Assembly: GCF_014696135.1 (NCBI RefSeq)
Contig: NZ_JACJPP010000013.1
Coordinates: 124,001 to 188,000 of the forward strand
Length of the DNA: 64,000 bases
Direction of reading: 5' to 3'
DNA from: Nodosilinea sp. FACHB-141
Lineage (GTDB): Bacteria; Cyanobacteriota; Cyanobacteriia; Phormidesmidales; Phormidesmidaceae
In this document: piece after piece, positions 1,781 through 6,051 of the stretch
Position numbering within the stretch: the first letter of the stretch is position 1
How the letters are laid out: the number at the start of each line of letters is the position of its first letter
Made by a program: the position numbers and the translations under genes
Notes under the pieces: generated by a model
Databases searched by the model: none
Seen by the model: the letters and a program-made list of their open reading frames with translations, nothing else
Told to the model about the DNA's origin: nothing

Positions 1781-1999
1781 ATGGCTGTCGAAAAAGTAAA
1801 CTCTTCCTCTAGCTTGGCTGAAGTTGTTGACCGCATTTTGGATAAAGGCATCGTTATTGATGCTTGGGTTCGTGTTTCTCTGGTAGGGATTGAGTTGCTG
1901 GCGATCGAAGCCCGCGTTGTAATCGCTTCCGTTGACACCTATCTAAAGTATGCCGAAGCCGTTGGCCTGACTGCTCAAGCCGCTGTACCTGCTGCCTAA
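1781..1999 (+). CDS. gvpA: Gas vesicle structural protein GvpA
   Basis: The 72-residue main shell protein of the gas vesicle, which polymerises into the ribbed hollow cylinder that gives buoyancy. Length and sequence are canonical: [20 protein letters not shown], then [20 protein letters not shown] (the hydrophobic strands facing the gas) and an Ala-rich C-terminal tail. It is the first gene of a rightward gas vesicle cluster and is separated from gvpC by 284 bases containing a hairpin. This fits the usual pattern in which a short gvpA transcript is much more abundant than the read-through operon transcript (established for other cyanobacteria, inferred here). Only one gvpA copy is present in the window. 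Confidence 0.97.
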
Positions 2000-2283: not shown

Positions 2284-3504
2284 GTGACAGCACTTTATGA
2301 CCAGTGGCAAGCCGCAAGACAACTGCGCCAGAGCGAGGTGGTTAACCGGCGCGATCAGGTCTCTGCTGACCTAGAGCGCTGGCAGACTGATCGGCTGACC
2401 CACGCTGTGCAGCTGCGCCAAGACCTCGACCAGCTGATGGCCGACCTGCGCGCCAACACTACCCTATGGCTAGCTCAAACAACCGCCGATCGCGCCGTCC
2501 AGATTCTACCCCGGCAGCAGGCTCGCCAAGACTATATTCAGCAGCTCCAGGCTGATACTGAAGTGCTGCTTGCAACGTACCAAGCCGATCGCGAAATTTG
2601 TGCCGCTGAGGTGCGAGACAAGCTCGCTTACGATTGCCAAGTACTTCAAGCTACTGTTAGCGAACTGCGGCTAGAGATTGCCCAGGAACTGCGCCAGGTG
2701 CAGCAACAGGTTGCCAACATTCAGGCTCAAACGGCTGTTGAGCTAGCGGGCTATCGCCAAGAGCAGGCTATGGTACGCGCCGAACTGCTACCTCAGCTTA
2801 CCGCCTACGTCGAAGACCTCCAGGTGCAGGTACAGGCCACCCTCAAAGACCTGACCACTGTGCGTCAGCAAGCAGCAGTAGTAAACCAGGAGCAGCGGCA
2901 AAGCGATCGCGCCGCCCTCACCGATTCCGTAGACGCCATGTTCACCGAACTGGCCGACTTTCGCCACCAGCTTCAGGCCCAGCGGGCTCAGCTCTCCCAC
3001 GTTGTCTGGGGCAGCGCTGCCGTAGCTCAGACTCTAGCCCCTCACTCAGCCACGAGCCGGCCGGCCGTTACTTCGGTACCTGCTCGTGGGCCTGCGCCAG
3101 CCAAGGTGGCCCCTAAAGCTGCGCCAAAACCCGTAATCGCCAAAGCGGCACCAGCTAAGGCAGCTCCTGTGGCTAAGGTTGCTCCAGCCCCAACGGCCAT
3201 GGTCAAGACCGCCCCTGCTCGCGCTGTTGCAGCAACCCGCTCTGCCCCGGTTGCTACCGTCACGGCCCCAGCTGTCCCGGCAGCGGTGGCTGTGGAACCG
3301 CCCCCCGCCCCCGAGCCCCCTTCCCTTGAAGAGGTAGTTTACAACTACCTGCACCTGGCTCAGGGTGCCCGTCTCAGCAAAATTGAGACGGAGCTTGGCA
3401 TTAACCGATTTCAGGCGGTAGACGCGCTGCGATCGCTCATCCAAAAAGACCTCGTCGTCAAGCAAGACCGTACCTATCTCGTCCAAGAGGAAGCCGTTCT
3501 GTGA
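2284..3504 (+). CDS. gvpC: GvpC-like gas vesicle outer-surface protein with extra C-terminal domain
   Basis: A 406-residue protein in the gvpC position. Residues ~1-250 are long amphipathic, Gln/Ala/Leu-rich helical repeats (for example [20 protein letters not shown] and [14 protein letters not shown]-like units), as expected of GvpC, which wraps and stiffens the GvpA shell. The repeats are much more diverged than the textbook 33-residue repeats. Residues ~265-345 are a Pro/Ala/Lys/Val-rich linker. Residues ~348-406 form a compact domain with the motif [11 protein letters not shown] that also ends GvpN (see findings) and looks like a small helical or winged-helix fold. It starts at GTG with AGGGAG upstream. 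The stop overlaps the gvpN start by four bases (GTGA), so translation is probably coupled. The assignment rests on position and composition; the exact repeat family should be tested. Confidence 0.75.
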
Positions 3505-4874
3505 ACACCGTTCTACAAGCCCGCCCCCGCAACTTTGTCTCCACCCCCACCCTAGAGCGCACCAGCCTCAGAGCCTTGCGGTACTTGCAATCGGGGTACT
3601 CAATTCACCTTAAAGGCCCCGCTGGTACCGGCAAAACTACCCTGGCCCTGCACCTAGCCGACCTGCTGGCTCGCCCGATCATGCTGCTGTTTGGCGATGA
3701 CGAGTTCAAAACCTCGGACCTGATCGGCAACCAGTCGGGCTACACCCGCAAAAAAGTGGTCGACAACTACATCCACAGCGTTGTGAAAGTGGAAGACGAG
3801 CTGCGCCACAACTGGACTGACTCGCGCCTCACCCTGGCCTGCCGCGAAGGCTTCACCATGGTGTACGACGAGTTCAACCGCTCCCGCCCCGAGGTCAACA
3901 ACGTGCTGCTGTCGGCCCTCGAAGAAAAACTTCTGGTGCTGCCCCCCAGCAACAACCGGGCCGAGTACATTCGCGTCAGCCCCCACTTCCGTGCCATTCT
4001 CACCTCTAACCCCGAAGAATACTGCGGCGTCCACGGCACCCAAGATGCGCTCCAGGACCGTCTAATCACCATCAACATGCCCGAGCCTGACGAACTGGCT
4101 CAGCAGCAAATTTTGGTGCAAAAGGTTGGCATCGACAGCTCTGCGGCACTGCAAATTGTGCAGTTGGTCAAGGCCTTCCAGTCGTCGGTCGCCCCAGACA
4201 TGGTCTCCAGCTTGCGCCCCAGTCTCATGATTGCCACCATCTGCAACGACCACGGCATTTTGCCCCTGGCCGAAAACGCCGACTTCCGCGATGTGTGCAG
4301 CGACATTTTGCTAGCCCGCTCCAAAGAGCCCGCCCCAGATGCCACCCGCCACCTGTGGAACTTGTTCAACCGCTTTGTGGTGTCCCAGGCCGCGCTGGTT
4401 AACGACCTCACCCTCAAGCCCGAGGCCCAGCCCGCTGCCCGTTTCCATGGCGAAGAAGAGGATGACGCCCCGCTCCAACCCCTTGAGGCACTGGTTGAGT
4501 CTGCCGAGGACGATGTTGCGATTGATGATGAGCCCGTCGTTGAGGCCCAAGACCAAGACCTTCAAACTGAAGACCTCGCTGAGTCCATCAGCCCTGAGGC
4601 TCAAAGTGAAACCATAGTAGAAGCACCCGCTGAAGCCGAGTCTTTGCCAGAGGAGGTGCTCAAGGTGCAGGTCAACCCCAACGATGATATTGAAACTCGC
4701 ATTTTTGACTATCTCGACACGACCGGTACCGCATCTCTCGTTAACATTGAGGGAGCCCTAGATCTGAACCGATTTCAGGCTGTCAATGCTGTCAAGTCGA
4801 TGCTCGATCAGGGCTTAATAGAGAAACAGGAAACTGACGGGCAGCTCCAGGGCTACCAGCTGAGTTCTAACTGA
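3501..4874 (+). CDS. gvpN: Gas vesicle AAA+ ATPase GvpN with extra C-terminal domain
   Basis: A MoxR-type AAA+ ATPase needed for gas vesicle enlargement in other organisms. The Walker A motif GPAGTGKT is at residues 39-46 and the Walker B MVYDEFNR near residue 120; the sensor region [20 protein letters not shown] and arginine-rich segments follow. Residues ~1-295 match the usual GvpN core. A Glu/Asp-rich disordered linker (~310-390) then leads to a terminal domain at ~395-457 with [11 protein letters not shown], homologous to the end of the upstream GvpC. At 457 residues it is longer than the ATPase core needs. The GTG start overlaps the gvpC stop by four bases, and gvpJ follows after 12 bases. 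Confidence 0.93.
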
Positions 4875-4886
4875 AGGTAATCTGTC

Positions 4887-5237
4887 GTGACCCCCTCCAC
4901 CCCCGCGACCCGTCCCCAACCCGGTCGCAGCATGGCCACCGCCACCCAGGGGTCTTCCCTGGTGGATGTGATTGAGCGAGTGCTCGATAAAGGCATTGTG
5001 ATTGCTGGAGATATCTCAGTCTCCGTCGGTTCTACAGAACTGCTGAGCATCCGCATTCGCCTAATTATCTCCTCGGTCGATAAAGCTCGCGAAATCGGCA
5101 TTAACTGGTGGGAGAGCGATCCCTACCTCAGCAGCCGCACCAATGAACTGCTAGAGGCCAATCAACAGCTCCAAACTCGTTTAGAAACCTTAGAGGCCGA
5201 ACTCAAAGCCCTACGATCTGCCGAACCCGTGAGTTAG
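4887..5237 (+). CDS. gvpJ: Gas vesicle protein GvpJ
   Basis: A GvpA-related minor shell protein thought to act in nucleation or the conical tips. The GvpA-like core is clear (SLVDVIERVLDKGIVIAGD, then STELLSIRIRLIISSVDKA). A charged coiled-coil-like tail rich in Glu/Leu/Gln follows, absent from GvpA and typical of GvpJ. The GTG at 4887 has an AAGG element about ten bases upstream, giving 116 residues; an ATG at 4932 would give 101. It sits 12 bases after gvpN in the same operon. Confidence 0.92.
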   Translation: MTPSTPATRPQPGRSMATATQGSSLVDVIERVLDKGIVIAGDISVSVGSTELLSIRIRLIISSVDKAREIGINWWESDPYLSSRTNELLEANQQLQTRLETLEAELKALRSAEPVS

Positions 5238-5333: not shown

Positions 5334-5528
5334 ATGCTGACGATTCGCACCCTGCGGCAAATTGCCACTAGCCGTACCATTCCCAGCTTTCGCTCGGTCC
5401 CTAGCCGCAGCCAAGGCGATCGCCTACGTCCAGTTGATGCAGGCCGCATAGGCCAACAACAAAGTCGAGCCCAAGCAGAAGAAGCCCGTCGCCAGTGGCT
5501 TCAACAGCAGTGGCAAAATCGGCCATAG
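5334..5528 (+). CDS. Small basic protein of unknown function inside the gas vesicle operon
   Basis: A 64-residue ORF between gvpJ and gvpK. It opens with MLTIRTLRQIA and ends in a Gln/Arg/Trp-rich helix (EEARRQWLQQQWQ). The protein is strongly basic with no membrane segment. In several cyanobacterial gas vesicle clusters a small poorly conserved gene (gvpX) occupies this position; I cannot show homology to it, so the symbol is left empty. A purine-rich AAAGAAGAA precedes the ATG. Co-directional placement with 97 bases before it and 52 after supports its being transcribed with the cluster. Confidence 0.55.
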   Translation: MLTIRTLRQIATSRTIPSFRSVPSRSQGDRLRPVDAGRIGQQQSRAQAEEARRQWLQQQWQNRP

Positions 5529-5580: not shown

Positions 5581-6051
5581 ATGACTTCCGAAAATGCCGA
5601 GCCAGACCTGTCGACCACGCTAGCGCTACAGCCTCCCGCCAAAACTGATGCGGGCTTAGCGCCGCTGCTGCTCACCGTCATTGAGCTAGTGCGGCAGCTG
5701 ATGGAAGCTCAGGTCATTCGCCGCATGGAATCGGGCGACCTGAACGACAATGACCTCGAACGAGCCGCCGACAGCCTGCGCAAGCTAGAGGAGCAGGTCG
5801 TTTCGATGTGCGAAATCTTTGATGTAGACCCGGCCGACCTCAACATCGACCTAGGGGAAATCGGTACCCTGCTGCCTAAAGAAGGCAACTACTACCCCGG
5901 CCAAAAAAATCAAAACCCCACCATTTTAGAGCTGCTCGATCGCCTCCTCGATACCGGTGTCGTCGTCGAAGGCGACGTTGACTTAGGGATGGCGCAACTC
6001 AACCTCATCCACGCCAAGCTGCGTCTAGTGCTGACCTCCAAACCTATCTAA
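5581..6051 (+). CDS. gvpK: Gas vesicle protein GvpK
   Basis: A 156-residue GvpK homologue, an accessory protein required for gas vesicle formation. Characteristic segments are LLLTVIELVRQLMEAQVIRR, DLERAADSLRKLEEQV, an acidic centre (DPADLNIDLGEIGTLLP) and a GvpA-like end (ILELLDRLLDTGVVVEGD, then LAQLNLIHAKLRL-like residues). A GTG six bases earlier is an alternative start. It is the last gas vesicle gene here: a kinase gene converges on it 35 bases later, so gvpF, gvpG, gvpL, gvpV and gvpW are not in this cluster. Confidence 0.93.
   Translation: MTSENAEPDLSTTLALQPPAKTDAGLAPLLLTVIELVRQLMEAQVIRRMESGDLNDNDLERAADSLRKLEEQVVSMCEIFDVDPADLNIDLGEIGTLLPKEGNYYPGQKNQNPTILELLDRLLDTGVVVEGDVDLGMAQLNLIHAKLRLVLTSKPI

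Follow-up and report, generated by a model that had tools for sequence, protein, structure and literature searches.

The window, by which we mean the whole 64,000-nucleotide stretch of Nodosilinea sp. FACHB-141 DNA that was analyzed, includes part of a cyanobacterial gas-vesicle cluster with gvpA, gvpC, gvpN, gvpJ, and gvpK; a GvpF/L gene lies on the other strand about 3 kb left of the window. The genes and features considered are as follows (coordinates are those of the window).

1781..1999, + strand: gvpA, shell protein (PF00741, E 4.6e-17; PRK09371 GvpA, E 1e-40)
2284..3504, + strand: gvpC, encoding GvpC with a predicted C-terminal winged-helix tail (open reading frame, 406 aa)
2284..3012, + strand: GvpC helical core, ending in VWG (sequence; the V-W-G motif sets the boundary)
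3013..3318, + strand: GvpC linker, A/P/K-rich (sequence)
3319..3501, + strand: predicted C-terminal winged-helix domain of GvpC, the C-tail (AF2 pLDDT 93.3, H-H-H-E-E; tail profile)
3501..3504, + strand: 4-base overlap (GTGA) of the gvpC stop and the gvpN start (open reading frames)
3501..4874, + strand: gvpN, encoding the AAA+ ATPase GvpN with a predicted C-terminal winged-helix tail (TIGR02640, E 3.8e-108)
4341..4682, + strand: end of the GvpN core and acidic linker (sequence)
4683..4871, + strand: predicted C-terminal winged-helix domain of GvpN, the N-tail (AF2 pLDDT 95.3, H-H-H-E-E; tail profile)
4932..5237, + strand: gvpJ (PF00741, E 1.4e-14; GvpJ model, E 5.1e-16, below the model cut-off)
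5581..6051, + strand: gvpK (PF05121, E 7.8e-32)

The gvpJ start was placed by choice at the first ATG of a reading frame that opens at 4887. The 4-base overlap of gvpC and gvpN was also found in 29 of 39 tail-bearing pairs. Between gvpJ and gvpK lies a small basic open reading frame of about 64 aa without a Pfam match (5334-5528), and the window GvpK (5581-6051) carries a GvpA-type domain (PF00741, 50.7 bits) C-terminal to its GvpK domain, a layout also seen in the GvpK of loci L075 and L183-L186.

The window GvpN passed the curated cut-off of TIGR02640 (360.9 vs 266.8 bits, residues 12-273). For GvpC, the 33-residue repeat model PF01304 found no match in the window's genome, nor in the GvpC protein itself at E ≤ 5, and a profile built from seven canonical cyanobacterial GvpC proteins gave a weak match to the window core (E 2.3e-4, 13.2 bits). 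This canonical profile matched the cores of 48 of 52 tail-bearing GvpC proteins at E ≤ 1e-3 and of 50 at E ≤ 0.01, and the reversed-sequence control returned a single match among 52 (E 1.2). In addition, PF01304 repeats were present in two tail-bearing GvpC proteins (G122 and G191), and the window gene sits between gvpA and gvpN in the gas-vesicle cluster. Because the canonical profile matches the cores and two tail-bearing GvpC proteins hold PF01304 repeats, the gene upstream of gvpN is assigned, from its sequence, as a GvpC whose repeats have diverged and to which a tail has been added. Canonical cyanobacterial GvpC, with its 33-residue repeats (Anabaena, Microcystis), is homologous to the tail-bearing proteins in its core by profile; unlike the window GvpC, it stops after the core, without a tail.

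The relationship of the two tails had first been proposed by eye, as 19 identities over 49 ungapped positions. BLASTP bears this out, with 19 identical and 32 positive residues over 48 ungapped positions (E 9e-9), and the local score of 94 for the window tails compares with an average of 22.6 for shuffled sequences (sd 4.4; best shuffle 53; 0 of 20000 as high). When profiles of 25 C-tails and of 38 of the 39 non-redundant N-tails were compared, the two families matched with a probability of 99.9 and an E-value of 2.8e-31. A C-tail query of the window's genome retrieved, besides itself, only the GvpN tail at E up to 10. A GvpN-tail search of 18 genomes gave matches at E < 0.01 in reading frames of 384-880 aa and, where both genes were identified, the matching frames were GvpN and GvpC. 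Named relatives whose tails are 93-98% identical belong to Nodosilinea, Leptolyngbya, Phormidium tenue, and Tildeniella. On these comparisons, GvpC and GvpN end in homologous copies of one small domain carried on flexible linkers, an arrangement widespread among cyanobacteria, and their description as added modules behind low-complexity linkers agrees with the A/P/K-rich composition in GvpC and the acidic composition in GvpN.

The tails do not look like a recent copy of one another. The 14-base word AACCGATTTCAGGC, which the preliminary description had reported as common to both genes, does occur, exactly twice in the window, at 3403-3416 and 4767-4780; it carries no special meaning, and the identity is not evidence of recent copying, because the longest exact DNA runs between C- and N-tails are alike within 48 genomes (mean 9.0 bases, maximum 15) and between different genomes (mean 8.8 bases, maximum 21). 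Recent gene conversion or duplication in the window's lineage was therefore rejected, as tails of the same genome are no more alike, and their DNA runs no longer, than those of different genomes. A tail tree with the 52 C-tails on one side of a branch was not rejected and had the higher likelihood (p-AU 0.941), although the tree is based on 53 columns with most forks open and the free search needed five changes. An artefact of gene adjacency was also rejected, since in four genomes gvpA-gvpC lies about 5-6 kb from gvpN and both proteins are tailed.

Each tail was modeled by AF2 from an alignment restricted to tails of that type. The C-tail model (mean pLDDT 93.3, pTM 0.79) comprises helices at residues 3-14, 19-26, and 30-42 and strands at 46-49 and 52-55; the N-tail model (mean pLDDT 95.3, pTM 0.81) comprises helices at 3-14, 19-26, and 30-43 and strands at 46-51 and 54-60. 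Both confident models thus show the arrangement of a winged helix, with a beta hairpin after three helices. Foldseek returned no match at E ≤ 0.001 for either tail, and its best rows were winged helices with TM-scores near 0.8. By VIA-align, the best Z was 11.7 for the C-tail (4ija, rmsd 1.0, 59 aligned) and 11.8 for the N-tail (3pqk, rmsd 1.4, 61 aligned), each with many rows tied among MarR, ArsR, ROK, and Z-alpha structures. The Pfam matches of the window tails were to TrmB (PF01978) and MarR_2 (PF12802), below cut-off; against the TrmB gathering cut-off of 25.6 bits, the window C-tail scored 22.5 and the N-tail 14.8, and the N-tail of one relative reached 26.0. The small winged-helix outline first suggested by inspection is consistent with these models, in which both tails are predicted winged helices; the two tails, matching each other by profile and sharing this predicted fold, were not placed in unrelated folds. 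The predicted fold is that of TrmB/MarR-type domains, which are found in transcription regulators; the tails instead end a shell protein and an AAA+ ATPase.

The closest named relatives of the tails bind DNA, a likeness of fold that shows no function in itself. The tails might nonetheless bind nucleic acid, either tethering the vesicle to the nucleoid or to mRNA or feeding back on gvp transcription. The DNA-binding families named by fold and by the weak Pfam matches, including the single N-tail above the TrmB cut-off, would favor such a role, as would the alignment of the N-tail profile to CodY, a DNA-binding repressor. Winged-helix domains often touch DNA at the start of the third helix and in the wing; in the models, the third helix starts with the conserved R30 and Q32, and the wing contains D50-R51, which would likewise speak for DNA binding. 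Across 52 genomes, E23, R30, R51, and Y53 are invariant in the C-tails, and the N-tails keep R30 in 51 of 52 and E23 in 45 of 52. A positive charge is generally expected of DNA-binding winged helices, whereas the tails are close to neutral in net charge (C-tail mean +0.63, range -4 to 5; N-tail mean -0.23, range -5 to 3), and position 35 in helix 3 is D, E, or N in all 52 C-tails (D47, E4, N1). The domains moreover ride on a shell protein and an ATPase and, in the genomes searched, occur only in gas-vesicle loci. We consider a nucleic acid-binding role improbable.

Selection on the tails was estimated from 12 close relatives (66 pairs). Median dN/dS values in GvpC were 0.054 for the tail, 0.119 for the core, and 0.225 for the linker, and in GvpN were 0.031 for the core, 0.358 for the linker, and 0.121 for the tail. 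Both tails are under purifying selection, and within the GvpC of the window's genus no other part is as constrained as the C-tail. The linkers differ in charge: those of GvpN were negative in 50 of 52 pairs and neutral in two, and those of GvpC were positive in 32 of 44, the 8 of 52 pairs without a recognized GvpC boundary having been dropped. (A fixed 97-residue stretch made all of the GvpN linkers negative; the 50 of 52 refers to real boundaries.) Tail-less GvpN is likewise acidic (7 of 7 in rows with the C-tail only); the charge contrast is thus independent of the tail, and opposite linker charge is weakened as evidence of attraction and is kept as a side remark only. Two GvpN proteins of 757 and 749 aa (L101:4683-6953 and L102:4325-6571) have an acidic repeat linker of about 400 residues (EEPVLEEPVLEEP type) before the tail.

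The distribution of the tails was examined in two samples. The GvpN family was found above its cut-off in 56 of 386 genomes of the cyanobacterial phylum, at 58 places, and a sample drawn by GvpN covers all 58, with the window standing for its own: 19 had both tails, 8 the N-tail only, none the C-tail only, and 31 neither. A dereplicated set of 93 rows, including 5 that are non-cyanobacterial, adds genomes of the order and a motif scan of named genomes. Among its 88 cyanobacterial rows, 52 had both tails, 21 neither, 7 the N-tail only, and 7 the C-tail only, and in one the GvpN was frameshifted; rows recruited by GvpC or by the C-tail inflate the class with both, and the GvpN-drawn count is the unbiased one. 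The C-tails of L067, L068, L070, and L071 were scored as present by hand, from a whole-genome search and further stretches. A Fisher test of co-occurrence over 87 rows (p 8e-9) ignores kinship and is not relied on. The C-tails of the C-tail-only rows are conserved, with profile scores of 73.5-88.3 bits.

The tails are restricted to gas-vesicle clusters in the genomes searched. The scan with the C-tail motif, which also established that the motif recurs in orthologues, gave 51 loci, with a GvpA-family open reading frame in all 51 and gvpN in 50, the remaining locus being cut by a contig end; a full N-tail was present in 42 of the 50. When 26 whole genomes were searched with a profile of both tails, all matches at E < 1e-12 fell in gas-vesicle loci; at that threshold no other Gvp or unrelated protein was found in these genomes, the best match outside such loci having an E of 2.3e-4. 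In the plasmid records searched, the tail was found only in the GvpN of Nostoc sphaeroides, and outside cyanobacteria no tail was detected in GvpN or its neighbors in the 5 records examined of 25 with GvpN. Individual loci depart from the common layout: (i) at L100:1900-3093, on the same contig as L122, the GvpN frame is disrupted immediately ahead of the tail, part of which is retained in a downstream 50-aa open reading frame; and (ii) at L085:5489-7828 (- strand), gvpC is shortened before the tail, with a second partial gvpC upstream, and the tail is complete in the close relatives L084 and L086.

A tree of the GvpN core, made by a quick method with 34 of 90 inner branches weakly supported, was used to follow gain and loss, both of which are inferred because its root is uncertain. 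A large clade consists mostly of rows with both tails, and the basal rows (families f25, f26, and f12) have neither. Most simply, the tail pair would have arisen once, early, with losses afterwards, the C-tail disappearing in the ancestral lineage of the group with canonical GvpC and in a few others. Under a loss-only count, the N-tail was lost nine times: five losses fell within clades lacking the C-tail (branch length 2.04) vs one where the C-tail was kept (length 9.95; one-sided p 0.0007), the latter being that of the seven C-tail-only rows; the other three fell in lineages that lost both tails, in one order or the other. Without the rows found by the C-tail motif, the losses were 5 vs 0 (p 0.003), in a set that retains rows found by full-length GvpC. 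This test was picked with the tree already in view, and support is weak at many forks; as a post hoc observation, GvpN loses its tail faster once GvpC is tail-less.

Other comparisons did not reveal a specific pairing of the tails. Tails were no more similar within a genome than between genomes (0.415 vs 0.407, permutation p 0.067), and in a mirror-tree analysis the partial correlation of C- and N-tail divergence (r 0.27) was weaker than that of the N-tail and the GvpC core (0.57); on both counts there is no specific signal of tail coevolution. A phylogenetic independent-pairs test was not significant (median p 0.5), with too few pairs. The seven C-tail-only and seven N-tail-only dereplicated rows weaken a strict heterodimer requirement, since neither tail strictly requires the other. 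The preliminary description had GvpC and GvpN meeting through the domain; this is supported in part, but not as an obligate pair, which the one-tail rows and the lack of excess similarity within genomes oppose. The seven C-tail-only genomes imply that the C-tail has another job. Taken together, retention of the C-tail without the N-tail and decay of the N-tail without the C-tail suggest that the C-tail serves a separate purpose and that whatever the N-tail does involves the C-tail.

These patterns also bear on whether the two tails bind one common third partner, such as GvpF, GvpK, GvpV, or a cell component, with the domain serving as a shared address. Each tail occurs without the other, and conservation falls on the same residues in the two families: among 52 tails of each kind, R30 is kept in every C-tail and 51 N-tails, and E23 in every C-tail and 45 N-tails. 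The C-terminal fragment of Halobacterium GvpC is reported to bind GvpF, H, I, and L as well (PMC9501494). The faster loss of the N-tail where the C-tail is missing points instead to dependence on GvpC, and we regard the third-partner explanation as unlikely.

We propose, with a probability of roughly 0.45, that the tails are old paralogous winged-helix copies acting as a protein-protein module, the C-tails forming a mesh and GvpN docking at the growth site. The GvpC core would bind the exterior of the shell and hold the C-tail out on a flexible tether; the C-tails would touch one another to form a mesh on the vesicle surface; and GvpN, bearing a copy of the domain on an acidic tether, would dock into or locally replace the C-tail contacts where GvpA is inserted. 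We infer these contacts, the mesh, and the docking place; the homology, the predicted fold, the purifying selection, and, in the genomes searched, the confinement to gas-vesicle clusters are what the sequences themselves establish. Published work on the proteins themselves is compatible with such a role: a cyanobacterial GvpN is reported to be an active ATPase (PMC7204071), GvpN deletion in other species is reported to block elongation, with mutants making small bicones (PMC11445434), and how GvpN acts in growth and reaches the shell are named as open questions (PMC11445434). The long tethers that would hold the C-tails outside the shell, and their conservation even in C-tail-only rows, could also mean that the C-tail only links neighboring vesicles into gas vacuoles and that the N-tail is a separate aid to oligomerization of the GvpN ring; this leaves unexplained both the homologous domains on the two proteins and the dependent loss, and is very improbable.

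The closest experimental parallel is Halobacterium salinarum, which has the same gvpA-gvpC-gvpN order, the same 4-base gvpC/gvpN overlap and, like the window GvpC, a globular C-terminal domain behind helical repeats. Split-GFP assays there reported that GvpN and GvpO bind the GvpC C-terminal fragment and that the fragment binds itself (PMC9372576), and a review proposed that GvpN bound to GvpC would interrupt the GvpC mesh where GvpA is added (PMC9501494). The Halobacterium domain is described as zinc-finger-containing, unlike the predicted winged-helix tail of cyanobacteria, and the available text of that report describes no domain common to GvpC and GvpN, unlike the cyanobacterial pair (PMC9372576). 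Because haloarchaeal GvpC and GvpN (Halobacterium and Haloplanus; loci L190 and L191) gave no match to the tail profile at E ≤ 0.01, this binding evidence counts by analogy only. By that analogy, the cyanobacterial layout would fit the Halobacterium picture and may add a reason for it, in that the ATPase bears the coat protein's own domain. The proposed mesh and docking could go further into mimicry, in which a regulator-type winged helix became protein glue, GvpC tails hold the coat together, and GvpN bears a duplicate of the GvpC mesh domain that its AAA+ ring would push into the coat to open it at the growth zone; the GvpC copy would survive alone and the GvpN copy decay alone because the former keeps its job in coat cohesion. 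This extension is possible, if somewhat doubtful.

A physical link between GvpC and GvpN had been put forward as missing from current Gvp models; it is not new, because binding of GvpN to the GvpC C-terminal domain has already been reported for Halobacterium (PMC9372576). A domain common to coat protein and ATPase, its cyanobacterial spread, and its absence from canonical GvpC were not found in the open-licence literature, and two papers that mention gas vesicles and winged helices do not, in their available text, concern Gvp domains (PMC8205485 and PMC5605881). As far as these searches reach, one domain on both GvpC and GvpN is new. The best-studied groups, with the canonical GvpC of Nostocaceae and Microcystis, lack the tail on GvpC, which may explain why it was not described earlier. 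The shared tail suggests a way for the ATPase to find the vesicle shell, and one that can be tested; the homologous pair provides separable, soluble domains of about 60 residues for direct tests of contact, localization, and elongation, and a naturally tethered docking domain on GvpC offers a handle for engineered gas vesicles.

Further variation was seen in tail-less loci. At L078:5641-6678 and L082:5294-6433 (both - strand), in two families from early branches of the GvpN tree, GvpC carries another kind of C-terminal domain, about 60 residues long, which gave no convincing Pfam match, and GvpN is short and tail-less. At L075:9989-11866 and L072:7428-9338 (both - strand), where both GvpN proteins are also tail-less, an ArsA/Get3-like ATPase of 626-637 aa adjoins gvpN (PF02374, E 2.6e-49 for L075), and it is possible that this ATPase is a chaperone for the hydrophobic GvpA.
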